From an uncultured Alphaproteobacteria bacterium (GTDB lineage Bacteria > Pseudomonadota > Alphaproteobacteria > VGEJ01): 64,000 nucleotides of DNA. A program made the translations under genes and the position numbers. Under the pieces are notes generated by a model. It saw only the letters and a list, made by a program, of their open reading frames with translations. It ran no database searches and was not told where the DNA came from. This document shows, piece by piece, positions 39,246 to 48,067 of the stretch. The stretch covers positions 1-64,000 of the forward strand of contig CAJWJK010000007.1 of assembly GCA_913041535.1 (NCBI GenBank), read 5' to 3'. Position 1 is the first letter of the stretch; each line of letters begins with the position of its first letter.

Positions 39246-40892
39246 TTATTCTTCCGAAAATGCTCGCGAAACTTTCTTAGGTTCTAGCCGCTTCGCCACC
39301 ATTGCTTCTGTCGTTATAACTAGCCCAGCAGTAGAAGCCGCATTAGCTAATCCTACCTTAACCACACGCGTCGGATCAATTACCCCACTTTTCATCATAT
39401 TAGCAAACTTGCCATTTACGGCATCATAACCCCAACTGCGATCCTTATGCTCCATTAGCTTAGCGACAGCTAGGGTGCCATCTTCACCACCACTCTCGAC
39501 TATACGTTTGAATGGTTCACTTAAAGAGCGCAGAACAGCGTTAATTCCTGCCCTTTCATCTATTGATTCTGTCTCAAGTAGCGATACATCGATAACCGCG
39601 CGAGCCAAGGAAACACCGCCACCTGGCAATATTCCTTCAGCAACAGCGGCTTTGGTAGAGTTCACCGCATCCTCCACCATCTGCTTCCGCTGATTAATCT
39701 CAACTTCCGTGTCCCCACCAACCCGAACTACGGCAATGCCGCTGACAAGTCTTGCCAACCGTTGTTGCAATTGCTCACGATCGTATGCAAGATAACGCTC
39801 TCTTTCTACCGCTTTTCGAAGCTCTGCACAGCGTGCAGTAATAGCCTTTTTCTTCCCTGCACCATCGACAATTGTTGTAAAACCCGCCGACAAAACAGCA
39901 CGTTTCGCCCTGCCAAGCATCTCTGGCCGTAAGCGACTGATGGTGTTACCAAGATCTCCAGTGACCAATTCAGCTCCTGTCATTATGGCAATATCTTCTA
40001 ACATTGCCTTTCGACGTGCCCCAACTCCAGGCGCTTTGGCCGCTGCAACCTTAAGACCGCCATCACGATGGTTTACCACAAGACTGGTTAAGGCTTCACC
40101 TACAACATCTTCCGCTATTACTAAAAGCCATTTCCCCGACTTTGCAAAAGCACGAAGCGCAGGCTCGATGGCATCGAAACTTTCAATTTTACCATCGTGA
40201 AGCAATATATAAGGATCATCCATCTCTACCACCATCCGCCGAGAGTCCGTGTGAAAATGGGATGATAGATACCCTCCATCAACATGCATGCCGTCACGTA
40301 ATTCCAACTCAATCTCTCTAGTCGACCCTTCCTCGACCACTACAAAGCCCTCTGAACCTATAGATTCAACGGCCCGTGAAATAATTCGGCCGACCTCACG
40401 GTCACCGTTTGCCGAAATTGTAGCAATGTTTTCTACGTCAGATGACGACCGCACTGAACGAGACTGGTGATCCAATGCTGCGAGTGCCGTTTTTACTGCT
40501 TTATCAATTCCACGTTTCACCCCTAGTGGTGTTAAACCCGCAGCAACGGCAGTAAGCCCTCTACGAACCATTGTACCTGTTAGCACCACCGCAGTGGTTG
40601 TGCCATCGCCAACACTAATATCAGTCTGGTGTGCCACCTCGCGCAACATTCTTGCGCCCATATCCGCACCACGATCATCCAACTCAATAGAGCGTATGAT
40701 AGCGTAGCCATCACGAGACAATTCGGGCTTCGCATTCTGTTTTTCAATTAGTACTGTGCGACCGCGAGGGCCAAGCGTAACTCCGACAGTAGCTAAAGTG
40801 AGATCAACGCCTGCAAGAACTCTCGAACGGGCGTCAGTGCCGAAAGAAATATCTTTCGGGCCAGGATCAGTTAAAAGGGGCGTCGCAGCCAC
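39246..40892 (-). CDS. groEL: Divergent chaperonin GroEL (orphan, no GroES)
   Basis: 548 residues from a GTG at 40892, which has GAGAGG six bases upstream; the frame extends to a TTG at 40910 without a ribosome binding site. The ATPase elements are kept: 'TLGPRGRTV', 'GDGTTTAVVL' and the 'VEDAV' aspartate. The apical 'GGYLSSHFHTDSRRM' differs from the usual GYLSPYF. The C terminus ends 'RLEPKKVSRAFSEE' and lacks the GGM repeat tail. No groES precedes it. This suggests a second, specialised chaperonin; the housekeeping groESL would be elsewhere. Confidence 0.88.
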   Translation of the reverse strand: MAATPLLTDPGPKDISFGTDARSRVLAGVDLTLATVGVTLGPRGRTVLIEKQNAKPELSRDGYAIIRSIELDDRGADMGARMLREVAHQTDISVGDGTTTAVVLTGTMVRRGLTAVAAGLTPLGVKRGIDKAVKTALAALDHQSRSVRSSSDVENIATISANGDREVGRIISRAVESIGSEGFVVVEEGSTREIELELRDGMHVDGGYLSSHFHTDSRRMVVEMDDPYILLHDGKIESFDAIEPALRAFAKSGKWLLVIAEDVVGEALTSLVVNHRDGGLKVAAAKAPGVGARRKAMLEDIAIMTGAELVTGDLGNTISRLRPEMLGRAKRAVLSAGFTTIVDGAGKKKAITARCAELRKAVERERYLAYDREQLQQRLARLVSGIAVVRVGGDTEVEINQRKQMVEDAVNSTKAAVAEGILPGGGVSLARAVIDVSLLETESIDERAGINAVLRSLSEPFKRIVESGGEDGTLAVAKLMEHKDRSWGYDAVNGKFANMMKSGVIDPTRVVKVGLANAASTAGLVITTEAMVAKRLEPKKVSRAFSEE

Positions 40893-40942
40893 GGTAGACC
40901 TCTCAGTCAATTAGGCAAATACAATAACCAACGTGTTTGCAA

Positions 40943-42179: not shown

Positions 42180-42329
42180 ATGTCATTTCTGATTGAGTTT
42201 TGGAAATTCATTCGCGTTCGGAAGAAGTTCTGGCTTCTGCCGATTCTCATCGTGATGGCGCTGTTCGGTGGTTTAATCGTTTTGACTCAAGGAACCGCCG
42301 TGTCACCCTTTATCTATACAATTTTCTAG
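42180..42329 (+). CDS. DUF5989-type small membrane protein
   Basis: A 49-residue protein starting 'MSFLIEFWKFIRVRKKFWLL', continuing with one membrane helix ('PILIVMALFGGLIVLTQ') and ending 'VSPFIYTIF'. This matches the DUF5989 family, short proteins commonly encoded beside carbamoyltransferases in polysaccharide and toxin clusters. The gene ends five bases before the carbamoyltransferase ATG, so the two are surely co-expressed. The basic 'RVRKK' before the helix predicts a cytoplasmic N terminus. No function is established; a membrane anchor or partner for the carbamoyltransferase is an inference. Confidence 0.82.
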   Translation: MSFLIEFWKFIRVRKKFWLLPILIVMALFGGLIVLTQGTAVSPFIYTIF

Positions 42330-42334
42330 GTTAC

Positions 42335-44170
42335 ATGCGCATTCTAGGCCTATCCGCGTTCTACCATGACAGTGCAGCAGCACTGTTGGTGGACGGGGAC
42401 ATCATAGCTGCAGCGCAGGAAGAACGTTTTAGCAGACATAAACATGACTCACAGTTTCCGAGAAATGCAACGCAATACTGCCTTGATGAAGCAGGCATCA
42501 CAATGGACCAAATCGATCATTTTGCCTTTTATGACAAGCCATTCTTAAAGTTTGAGAGGCTGTTGGAAACTTATACTGCAGTCGCCCCGCGAGGATTCCA
42601 GTCTTTTCGTCAAGCAATGCCTCTGTGGCTGCGAGAGAAACTATTTCAGAAAAGTCTTCTGACATCAGAACTTAAGGCGTTTGCCCCAAATGTCGATTTT
42701 GCCTCAAAACTATTGTTTGCCGAACACCACCAAAGCCATGCAGCAAGTGCATTTTTTGCATCTCCATTTGCAGAAGCGGCCGTTCTTACGCTCGATGGCG
42801 TCGGTGAATGGGCAACGACATCCCTTGCTATTGGTTGCGGCAACAATTTAAAAATGATTCGTGAAATGCATTTTCCACACTCACTCGGTCTACTGTACTC
42901 AGCATTCACCTACTATACGGGATTTAGGGTGAATTCCGGGGAGTATAAAGTTATGGGGCTAGCTCCATATGGAACCCCAATATATCGGGACCGAATCCTA
43001 GATAACCTCATAGATTTAAAAGCGGATGGTACATTTCGACTAGACATGTCCTATTTCGACTATTGTTCTGGCCTTCGCATGACCAGCAAACGCTTTCACG
43101 ATCTATTTGGCGCGCCCCCCCGAAACCCAAACTCTCTTCTAGACCAACGACATATGGACCTTGCAGCTTCCATCCAGGAAGTGACTGAGGAAGTGATGCT
43201 GCGGCTAACTCGCTCTATTGTTAAAGAGACAGGCCATAACAAACTTTGTCTGGCAGGAGGAGTTGCGCTTAACTGCGTTGCCAATGGCAAGATTATGCGC
43301 GACGGACACGTCAAAGAACTATGGATTCAACCTGCTGCAGGAGATGCTGGAGGGGCTCTTGGAGCTGCCCTTTGCGCATACTATGGATTCAAAAGGCAAC
43401 CCCGTACTATCGATAGCAATAGCGACTCAATGCAGGGAAGCTATCTTGGCCCCTCCTTTAAGCAAAAAGATATTGAAAAACGTCTTTCTGATTCAGGCGC
43501 AAGATTTACAGTGGTTAACGATACAAACCTTATCGGTCAAACTGTATCTGCTTTATCGGAAGGTAAAGCAGTAGGCTGGTTTCAAGGGCGTATGGAATTC
43601 GGACCTCGTGCACTCGGCGCACGCTCCATCCTCGGTGATGCACGCTCACCCACTATGCAGAAACTCTTGAATCTAAAGATCAAGTATCGCGAGAGTTTTC
43701 GCCCATTTGCTCCATCTATTTTGCGCGAAGATGTTGGGGATTGGTTCGAATTAGATTCAGATAGCCCCTACATGCTTTTAGTTGCAAAAGTCAACGAAGA
43801 GCACCGCCGCCAGACAACTCCTGAAGAAGATGCCCTGTTTGGTATTGAAAAGATTAGCGTCCGAAGATCTAGCATTCCAGCCATCACCCACGTCGACTAT
43901 TCGGCTCGAGTGCAGACCGTTCATCTCTCAACAAATCCGCTCTACTATAACCTAATTAAAAATTTCAAGAAGCAAACGGGCTGCCCGCTTATTGTCAATA
44001 CAAGCTTTAACGTGCGCAGTGAACCGATCGTCTGCACTCCCGAAGACGCATTTCGCTGTTTCATGGGAACTGAAATCGAATACCTATCCATCGGAAATTG
44101 TGTACTGAACAAAGAGGAACAAGACCCTGCGTTGATATCAGATTACAAAGATAATTTCGAAGCTGATTAA
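42335..44170 (+). CDS. Carbamoyltransferase, NodU/CmcH/TobZ family
   Basis: 611 residues from the ATG at 42335; a longer frame upstream overlaps the small DUF5989 gene and is rejected. Family features are 'MRILGLSAFYHDSAAALLVD' at the start, the metal motif 'EHHQSHAASAFFASPF', 'LTLDGVGEWATTS', 'CLAGGVALNCVANGKI' and the C-terminal 'EFGPRALGARSILGD' with 'FRPFAPSIL'. The enzyme makes carbamoyl-adenylate from carbamoyl phosphate and ATP and transfers the carbamoyl group to a hydroxyl. The acceptor is unknown; no glycosyltransferases or antibiotic genes lie near. Confidence 0.93.
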   Translation: MRILGLSAFYHDSAAALLVDGDIIAAAQEERFSRHKHDSQFPRNATQYCLDEAGITMDQIDHFAFYDKPFLKFERLLETYTAVAPRGFQSFRQAMPLWLREKLFQKSLLTSELKAFAPNVDFASKLLFAEHHQSHAASAFFASPFAEAAVLTLDGVGEWATTSLAIGCGNNLKMIREMHFPHSLGLLYSAFTYYTGFRVNSGEYKVMGLAPYGTPIYRDRILDNLIDLKADGTFRLDMSYFDYCSGLRMTSKRFHDLFGAPPRNPNSLLDQRHMDLAASIQEVTEEVMLRLTRSIVKETGHNKLCLAGGVALNCVANGKIMRDGHVKELWIQPAAGDAGGALGAALCAYYGFKRQPRTIDSNSDSMQGSYLGPSFKQKDIEKRLSDSGARFTVVNDTNLIGQTVSALSEGKAVGWFQGRMEFGPRALGARSILGDARSPTMQKLLNLKIKYRESFRPFAPSILREDVGDWFELDSDSPYMLLVAKVNEEHRRQTTPEEDALFGIEKISVRRSSIPAITHVDYSARVQTVHLSTNPLYYNLIKNFKKQTGCPLIVNTSFNVRSEPIVCTPEDAFRCFMGTEIEYLSIGNCVLNKEEQDPALISDYKDNFEAD

Positions 44171-45676: not shown

Positions 45677-48067
45677 TTACCCTTGCCTAAGCGTAAGAGA
45701 GAAAAAGTCCTCTGGGTTTACCCGAAGAGCTGCGCCTGTCGGGCAGGCACGAACGCATGCAGGACCGCCAGCTATATCTTTGCACATATCGCATTTAACA
45801 GCGCTCTTTTTTTGCAAATTATCAGCTACACCAAGATTTTCATGCTCCCCTGGCCCCGGCCCCTGCCCAAACAACATCCATTGCCACAAAGGCGGCTTAT
45901 TCGGAGGCTTACTTGCCATATGTATGACACCGTATGGGCAATTACGCTCACAGTTTCCACAGCCAATACACGATTCATCTATAAAAACCTCGCCATTAGA
46001 GGCTCGATGAATCGAGTTTGAAGGACATTCCGACATGCAATGTGGATGCTCACAGTGCCTACAAGACGTCGGCACATGAACATTCGCGAATGTAGGACCA
46101 GCCTCCCGATCGAGGCGAGATGTTCCACCATGCGTTTCAGCGCACGCAACCTCACAATTGTCACAGCGCACACACAAGGACTCGTCGATCAACAGTATAT
46201 CAGTAGCCTCACCAGCACCCTGGCTGACTAGAAATTCTATTATACCGCCTACCTCAGGCGCATTTTCCATGGCAACATTCTGTGCCAGCCGATCCTGAAA
46301 GCGTGCCTCAACACTTGACCTGAGTTCGGGATTACGATCCAAAAGAGACTTAAACTCGTTACCATCCATGCATAGCACTTCGGTTGCTACCGCGGCCCGA
46401 ACCGTTGCCGAGCGCTTAGAATCCGTGAGTAACGCCATCTCCCCCACATAGTGCCCAGCAGGCACATAAGACAACACTATCTCGCGACCACCGATAGTTC
46501 GGGAGACGGTCACAGACCCTCTCCTGATCAAATATACTACCTCCCCCTCATCACCTTCACGGAACAAGACGTCGCCAGCAGAAAAACTCTCTAGAGTTGT
46601 GGACTCAACAATTTCCCGAAGATCTTCCTGATCAAGGTGCGGCGCTATGTACGTCTGTATCTGGCGGCGCATTGCCTCCTGGTCTATCTCCCGTTTGACC
46701 GATTCAATAGAGCACATCAATTTGATCATCGACCGACGTGGAGTTTCCACTACAACGCAGTCATCGATGGCTCTTGCTGTTGCCGTGCGGCGTCTCCCAG
46801 AGATTAAACCCATCTCACCGAAGAATCGCCCTTGCCCTAAAGATACCACTTCCCCAGAATCATCGGGATTAACTTCAATTCCCACTGCACCCGATAAGAC
46901 CGAATAGAAACTATTCGTAAAATCATTTCGCTCAAAAATGAGATCGCCTGGTTTTAAAGTATGAATCTCACTATCAATCAGGAACTCCCTAAGTTGTAGG
47001 GTTGTGAGACCAGATAAAAGTGGAATATTAGTCCTTAACATTTCAAGAGCCGTGCCTACCCCAACTCCTAAATTTTCAAATTTAGCCTCTAATAACGGCT
47101 CATCAGCGGGCTTCACATCATTCCCAATAATAAATTCTACTACCTCATAGCCCTGGTTCATGGCCTGCTTTATCAGCGGGTAACCACCGAGCGCACCCAC
47201 AATGAATATGCCGGGTACGTTGGATTCATACTTTGCACTAACTTCTGGTAGGGCGCTTGGCGCTGTCCCCGAAAATTCGATACCACAGGATTCAACGAAT
47301 TTGCGCGGCGCAATCGCACCAAGTCTTGCAATAACTCGATCACATTCAATATTGGCTTCACCATCTGCAGTCGTTAGCACTAAAACCTTACCCCCATCAT
47401 CTTCTCTCACTTCTTTTGGGTTAGCATTGTAATAGCAGTGGATCTCACCATTCTCGATAGCCGCCGTAATCAGGTTTAGATTGCCTTGTTTTGCCCGAGC
47501 AAACTCATCACGACGATTCACAATTATGACGTTATTGTGAGCAGCCAGCGCCATAGCATTTTCAATGGCAGCATCACCGGCACCGACAACGACAATTGTC
47601 TCATCATTATATTCGTCTGGGTCATCTAACTGATACTGAATCCACTCCCTATCAGCACCTGGAACATCCATTTTACGGAGATTGCCTTGAAGACCTATAG
47701 CTAACACAACATTTTCAGAAGTAAGTGTTTCCCCACCCTGTAGCGCCAGAGTAAAGTTACCTTTCTCTCCTGTTATGCCTATAACCTCGCTGCGATATTG
47801 CACTTTCAGGCTCAGTTCCTGTGCTCGAGTATCCCAGCCTCCTAACACATCTTCCCTACGTCCAGCACCAAATTCAAAGCTAGAACGCAATGGCAACACG
47901 TCCGGTGTTGACATGACGTGCTTGCCCTTTTGGTACTTAAAAATGGTGTCTGACAAATGATCAGACTTTTCCACGAGCACATAATCCAGCTCACGTTCTG
48001 ACGCTTGACCAGCGGCACTTAAACCAGCCGGCCCCGAACCAACAATGACAATACGATGATCAGCCAT
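45677..48067 (-). CDS. Four-module FAD oxidoreductase / cNMP / cNMP / ferredoxin fusion
   Basis: 796 residues. About 1-330 is a thioredoxin-reductase-like FAD/NAD(P) module ('IVIVGSGPAGLSAAGQA', 'VVVGAGDAAIENAM') without the redox CxxC. Two cyclic-nucleotide-binding domains follow (about 345-460 and 475-600), with 'FFGEMGLISGRRRTATARA' and 'YVGEMALLTDSKRSATVRA' as their phosphate-binding cassettes, both keeping Glu and Arg. About 620-790 is a DmsB-like ferredoxin with four cysteine groups (CVRCDNCEVAC, CRHCEHPHCMSEC, CIGCGNCERNC, CDMC with CVRACP), enough for four [4Fe-4S] clusters. It appears soluble. It could pass electrons under cAMP-like control. GAGAGGCG precedes the ATG. Confidence 0.9.
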   Translation of the reverse strand: MADHRIVIVGSGPAGLSAAGQASERELDYVLVEKSDHLSDTIFKYQKGKHVMSTPDVLPLRSSFEFGAGRREDVLGGWDTRAQELSLKVQYRSEVIGITGEKGNFTLALQGGETLTSENVVLAIGLQGNLRKMDVPGADREWIQYQLDDPDEYNDETIVVVGAGDAAIENAMALAAHNNVIIVNRRDEFARAKQGNLNLITAAIENGEIHCYYNANPKEVREDDGGKVLVLTTADGEANIECDRVIARLGAIAPRKFVESCGIEFSGTAPSALPEVSAKYESNVPGIFIVGALGGYPLIKQAMNQGYEVVEFIIGNDVKPADEPLLEAKFENLGVGVGTALEMLRTNIPLLSGLTTLQLREFLIDSEIHTLKPGDLIFERNDFTNSFYSVLSGAVGIEVNPDDSGEVVSLGQGRFFGEMGLISGRRRTATARAIDDCVVVETPRRSMIKLMCSIESVKREIDQEAMRRQIQTYIAPHLDQEDLREIVESTTLESFSAGDVLFREGDEGEVVYLIRRGSVTVSRTIGGREIVLSYVPAGHYVGEMALLTDSKRSATVRAAVATEVLCMDGNEFKSLLDRNPELRSSVEARFQDRLAQNVAMENAPEVGGIIEFLVSQGAGEATDILLIDESLCVRCDNCEVACAETHGGTSRLDREAGPTFANVHVPTSCRHCEHPHCMSECPSNSIHRASNGEVFIDESCIGCGNCERNCPYGVIHMASKPPNKPPLWQWMLFGQGPGPGEHENLGVADNLQKKSAVKCDMCKDIAGGPACVRACPTGAALRVNPEDFFSLTLRQG

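Follow-up and report, generated by a model that had tools for sequence, protein, structure and literature searches.

The protein g1 is best read as a cytoplasmic module through which electrons enter a trans-envelope transfer chain, probably gated by cyclic nucleotides, and we hold this reading with moderate confidence. It is encoded on the minus strand at positions 45677–48067 of the window (the whole 64,000-nucleotide stretch of DNA that was analysed), where one chain of 796 amino acids plus a stop codon joins an FAD/NAD(P) module, two cyclic-nucleotide-binding (cNMP) domains and a ferredoxin with sixteen cysteines for four [4Fe-4S] clusters. The protein recurs widely, and its gene is paired again and again with the same set of genes for a membrane protein, multihaem cytochromes and an outer-membrane barrel.

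Domain organization of g1

The frame is intact, with 796 residues and zero internal stops, just as the first-pass annotation had described it; the strand, which that annotation left unstated, is the minus strand. A domain search, which the annotation had called for, returned PF07992, two stretches of PF00027 and Fer4 models on g1. The FAD/NAD(P) module (47150–48055, minus strand, residues 5–306; PF07992, E 4.3e-32) has the fold of YpdA and of ferredoxin-NADP reductases of the thioredoxin reductase (TrxR) type, and carries the nucleotide motifs GSGPAG and GAGDAA together with an NRRDEFARAK motif. At the position of the CxxC of thioredoxin reductase, g1 reads VVLAIGLQGN, and the only cysteines in the module (C211, C242 and C261) form no conserved CxxC. 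TrxR-type ferredoxin-NADP reductases likewise lack this pair. We rejected a role of g1 as a disulfide reductase because of its absence.

Next along the chain come the two cNMP domains, on which PF00027 scores 144 bits against a gathering score of 27.5 (E 1.4e-42, two stretches). The first (46703–46969, minus strand, residues ~367–455), placed by Pfam, the secondary structure of our model and conservation, contains the cassette FFGEMGLISGRRRTATA; the second (46331–46591, minus strand, residues 493–579), placed by the best Pfam stretch and conservation, contains the cassette YVGEMALLTDSKRSATV. The C-terminal ferredoxin (45719–46195, minus strand, residues ~625–783), recognised by Pfam, NCBIfam, solved relatives and the alignment, is of the DmsB/HycB type, with sixteen cysteines in four groups (C632/635/638/642, C669/672/677/681, C700/703/706/710 and C759/762/771/775) that follow the C-x2-C-x(n)-C-x3-C pattern. 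Several Fer4 models match it at residues ~660–780. Pfam and the alignment thus bear out the earlier description of a CxxC-less FAD/NAD(P) module joined to two cNMP domains and a DmsB-like ferredoxin with 16 cysteines.

By sequence, the closest solved proteins are YpdA for the flavin part, the regulatory parts of protein kinases G and A for the cNMP domains, and formate hydrogenlyase subunit 2 (7z0s) and HycB3/HycB4, the ferredoxin subunits of HDCR, for the C-terminus. The closest NCBIfam models (YpdA, CRP, AegA, HydN and DmsB) all score far under their cut-offs, the DMSO_dmsB equivalog at 53 bits against 214, and no curated family among the NCBIfam models listed covers the whole of g1. The bacillithiol disulfide reductase YpdA/Bdr and the TrxR-type ferredoxin-NADP+ reductases have the FAD/NAD(P) fold in common with g1; unlike YpdA, however, g1 is fused to three further domains, and it scores 131.2 bits on the YpdA model TIGR04018 against a cut-off of 339.9. 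Position 14 of g1, which we take to correspond to Cys14 of YpdA, is variable among homologues (A, G, C or S). AegA and YgfT resemble g1 in uniting a cytoplasmic FAD reductase and a 4Fe-4S ferredoxin in one polypeptide. Their module order is reversed, however, and they have neither cNMP domains nor a cytochrome conduit; the corresponding models (NF009408 and NF009451) match weakly, on the ferredoxin part, with 76 and 41 bits against equivalog cut-offs of 1003 and 1154.

Conservation and predicted structure

Scanning the GTDB species genomes, we confirmed 481 places that encode a relative of g1. The best 80 of these, which include alpha-, beta- and gammaproteobacteria, align over nearly the full length at 57–67% identity. 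In an even sample of the phylum, 15 of 399 genomes, the window's genome counted, contained a strong match, and the cultured genera Dokdonella, Lysobacter, Solimonas and Sphingobium possess the system. The AlphaFold2 model of g1, built with an alignment of 51 sequences, has a mean pLDDT of 75.6, with good flavin and cNMP parts and a poor ferredoxin part (pLDDT about 40–70). For the flavin part, Foldseek placed YpdA (7a7b) first, with a TM(target) of 0.85, and TrxR-type ferredoxin-NADP reductases close behind. The gene is a genuine one and not an artefact, given the 481 relatives, a model whose best solved relative is YpdA, and a GC content of 0.483 that is like that of the window (0.472); contig C21 of the same genome, which presumably holds its partners, has 0.482. 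Scans for promoters and terminators gave nothing above shuffled sequences.

None of the 16 ferredoxin cysteines varies among the 51 aligned members, the glycine motifs for FAD and NAD(P) are retained, and the thioredoxin reductase CxxC is absent. The NRRxEFARAK motif, whose R185 and R191 are kept in 50 of 51, resembles the 2′-phosphate-binding motif of thioredoxin reductase and so hints at NADPH as the donor. In the mechanism that we propose, NAD(P)H, probably NADPH, would reduce the FAD of the TrxR-type ferredoxin-reductase-like domain, and electrons would move from the flavin to the four [4Fe-4S] clusters of the C-terminal ferredoxin and on to the product of the neighbouring gene g2 in the membrane.

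The g1 operon in relatives

The first-pass annotation had also proposed surveying the architecture and its conserved neighbours in other genomes, and around relatives of g1 this survey brought out a conserved operon for the proposed conduit. There g1 heads a run of genes on the same strand, followed by g2, g3, often g4, and then g5, g6 and g7. Searched by tblastn with reference operon proteins, the best 80 of the 481 loci contained g3 in 73 cases, g2 in 69, g5 in 63, g6 in 62 and g7 in 58, many of the absences being contig ends. Betaproteobacteria have an altered order and retain most of the gene set, and in an independently drawn sample of the phylum the same genes adjoin g1 in nearly all cases. 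In one genome, G059, g1 occurs twice, and the second copy (L140:4485-6962) has no g2, g3 or CXXCH protein nearby.

The g2 protein (~275 aa) has several hydrophobic segments and five histidines that are invariant in 43 sequences, and is probably a small multi-histidine membrane protein resembling b-type cytochromes. In g3, an FHA-like domain is followed by one membrane segment and then, in 62 of 72 sequences, by ten CXXCH motifs; L036:13265-15025 is an example in which a single membrane helix joins the FHA-like domain to the ten-haem cytochrome. The Gly-Arg of the FHA-like domain is invariant, and the serine that usually contacts phosphothreonine is replaced in the alignment, for which reason we marked down a role for g3 as a phosphothreonine reader. 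A small secreted protein (g4) and an HbpS-like protein with a repeated domain (g5) accompany g7, a cytochrome of ~1250 aa that has ten haems and LVIVD repeats. The remaining gene, g6, encodes a predicted barrel of ~18 strands with a C-terminal aromatic residue, to which AlgE and Pseudomonas porins are most alike; it appears to be AlgE/porin-like and not MtrB-like, and a passage of electrons over the outer membrane is putative. An outer-membrane beta-barrel is nevertheless encoded together with the ten-haem cytochromes g3 and g7.

From g2, electrons would pass to g3, a single-span decahaem protein whose FHA-like domain would lie in the cytoplasm, and from g3 to interchangeable outer modules. 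In most relatives these modules would be the ten-haem LVIVD cytochrome, the HbpS-like protein and the AlgE-like barrel. The earlier proposal of a self-contained, signal-controlled oxidoreductase therefore survives in part. A path from NAD(P)H through FAD to the Fe-S clusters, with the cNMP domains in between, fits the data well; its self-containment is not supported, since in nearly all cases g1 comes first in an operon that also encodes membrane and periplasmic cytochromes of a chain and an outer-membrane barrel.

A counterpart of g1 without the flavin module

In many alphaproteobacteria (L151-L162, L169, L170 and L115), the g1 slot is filled by an FAD-less cNMP-ferredoxin protein of 540–572 aa. 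A survey for the pentahaem cytochrome was positive in 29 of 385 genomes of the class, and around the best 20 of these 29 loci the usual order is c554, FAD-less cNMP-ferredoxin, g2-like gene, FHA-decahaem, pentahaem and barrel. In three genomes (L163, L164 and L168), full-length FAD-type g1, g2 and g3 adjoin the same pentahaem and barrel genes. The existence of the FAD-less version suggests that the cNMP domains and the ferredoxin form the common core, to which the flavin module was added as an inlet. Because the slot is filled in other genomes by this version (about 560 aa), the chain may draw electrons from sources besides NAD(P)H.

Proposed cyclic-nucleotide gating

Residues G417, E418, R426 and R427 of the first cassette and G542, E543, R552 and A554 of the second are each present in 51 of 51 aligned members. 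In known cyclic-nucleotide proteins, the Glu and Arg of the cassette contact the ribose and the phosphate. Placed between the flavin and the ferredoxin, the two domains most likely bind cAMP or cGMP and would thereby switch electron entry on or off. Class III cyclases occur in 14 of 14 genomes that bear the gene or are related, with six matches in the window's genome, and also in 5 of 14 control genomes, so that a supply of the ligand is plausible and the presence of cyclases counts as permissive evidence.

There is a modest chance that the conduit role is right and that the cNMP domains are nonetheless structural or bind another ligand, the flow being set by expression and not by ligand binding. 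In the one FAD-less cNMP-ferredoxin sequence that we read, the second cassette looks degenerate, and since the FHA-like domain of g3 is without its usual serine, regulatory folds may be repurposed in this system. Against such a loss of sensing stand the Glu and Arg of both cassettes, which no FAD-type member in the alignment has given up, and the cyclases found in every gene-bearing or related genome tested.

Direction of electron flow

The chain as proposed would export electrons from NAD(P)H. The same conduit could run in reverse, with electrons moving inward from a periplasmic or extracellular donor and g1 reducing NAD(P)+, a reaction that TrxR-type ferredoxin-NADP reductases are able to carry out with reduced ferredoxin. 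Ferredoxin-NADP+ reductases are indeed among the closest folds to g1, and nothing in the sequence fixes the direction. Cytochromes of the c554 and pentahaem kinds are found in both oxidative and reductive pathways. We nevertheless consider inward flow unlikely, as the potential of haem chains would usually be too high for NADP+ to be reduced unless energy is put in, and we recognised no proton-motive or bifurcating partner in the conserved operon.

The split arrangement in the window's genome

In the window, g1 lies between a gene like those for acyl-CoA dehydrogenases and one for a class IV aminotransferase, with no redox-chain genes beside it. The g2 of this genome, 56% identical to the g2 of a close relative, lies on contig C21, in the order c554-type tetrahaem cytochrome (C21:5396-6334), g2, ten-haem g3, pentahaem cytochrome and a barrel-like protein whose last residue is Phe; a search of the genome for g7, the LVIVD decahaem protein, found none. 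The C21 cluster has the order of the FAD-less-type loci with the g1 slot empty, and its g2 groups with the partners of FAD-type g1 (nearest G001, L005 and L033) and stands well apart from the FAD-less clade (support 1.0). From the gene type of this g2 and the neighbourhoods in relatives, we infer that the g1 of the window is the partner missing from the C21 cluster and would work in trans with g2 and g3, to which it is here unlinked. A comparable separation occurs in G053, where the g1-g2-g3-c554 group is on one contig and the pentahaem-barrel pair on another. About 3 kb upstream of the c554-g2-g3 cluster on C21 there is a gene of the aldehyde ferredoxin oxidoreductase type (G000, L109:692-2629), and a link to the chain is possible.

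The terminal partner, which the first-pass annotation had listed as missing, is accordingly no longer wanting in the main: it is largely identified as g2 and g3 with the outer modules, and the window's genome has such a chain on C21, where the pentahaem or tetrahaem c554-type cytochromes and the barrel would be the outer modules. That g1 is instead a stand-alone soluble signal-controlled oxidoreductase, whose partner here is a soluble cytoplasmic acceptor outside the cytochrome chain, is improbable, for the lack of redox-chain genes beside it in the window and the likewise solitary second copy in G059 are outweighed by the almost universal placing of its relatives in the conduit operon and by the FAD-type g2 and g3 that this genome retains on C21.

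Comparison with known conduits

Of the described systems, the Geobacter ext and Mtr-type conduits come closest. Like the g1 operon, the Geobacter ExtHIJKLMNOPQS cluster (PMC5877670, PMC6148476) combines a barrel in the outer membrane with several multihaem cytochromes and with a membrane protein, which is a b-type cytochrome in Geobacter and probably a b-type-like one here. As given in PMC5877670, however, the ext genes include neither an FAD-cNMP-ferredoxin protein nor an FHA-decahaem protein; a mention of 'cyclic nucleotide' in the Geobacter paper refers to a GAF domain. At the level of single proteins the likeness is partial: g7 matches ExtM at E 2.8e-21 (75.5 against a cut-off of 800), and the pentahaem cytochrome of the window's genome matches ExtKL at E 5.9e-8 (31.7 against 250). 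Shewanella MtrCAB, with its decahaem cytochromes and barrel, works in outline like the g1 conduit but differs in the barrel, which is MtrB in the one and closest to AlgE and porins in the other. The two also differ at the entry, where MtrCAB receives electrons from quinol through CymA and the g1 conduit would receive them through a cNMP-bearing NAD(P)H module. A Magnetospirillum protein described as 'with a cyclic nucleotide-binding domain' (MGMSRv2_1306) was set aside, as no tie to the g1 family was established.

The first-pass annotation had put g1 forward as a candidate for an undescribed system. Limited searches of the literature and the PDB brought up no well-characterised enzyme with the same order of modules, which agrees with that claim; the architecture is, on the other hand, widespread and not unique. 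We also found no published account of the architecture or the operon in the open-access literature, the only literature covered, which makes this weak evidence of absence. Taken singly, the parts are all familiar (flavin reductase, cNMP domain, four-cluster ferredoxin, multihaem cytochromes and barrel), and the novel element would be an entry protein that binds a signal at the head of an electron chain across the envelope. Tentatively, then, g1 and its partners may represent an undescribed class of conduit, in which a cyclic nucleotide directly gates an NADPH:ferredoxin-type entry into a membrane and decahaem chain, an FHA-like second control domain sits on the decahaem wire, and the outer-membrane modules are exchangeable.

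If this is true, cyclic nucleotides would act here directly on an electron-transfer enzyme, not via transcription, and second-messenger signalling would be coupled to redox flow over the cell envelope. It would also offer a function for the many genes whose annotation says no more than cyclic-nucleotide-binding or hypothetical protein. Because the system is common and found in cultured genera, it is testable in laboratory strains.

Other genes in the window

Two further loci in the window deserve mention. On the minus strand at 39246–40910 lies a gene for a member of the Cpn60/TCP-1 family, whose Pfam score is moderate (213.6 bits) and which may be a second, divergent chaperonin; the genes around it look transporter-like. 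On the plus strand, 42200–44170 encodes a carbamoyltransferase (Carbam_trans_N and _C) beside a small 2TM-domain protein, unrelated to g1.
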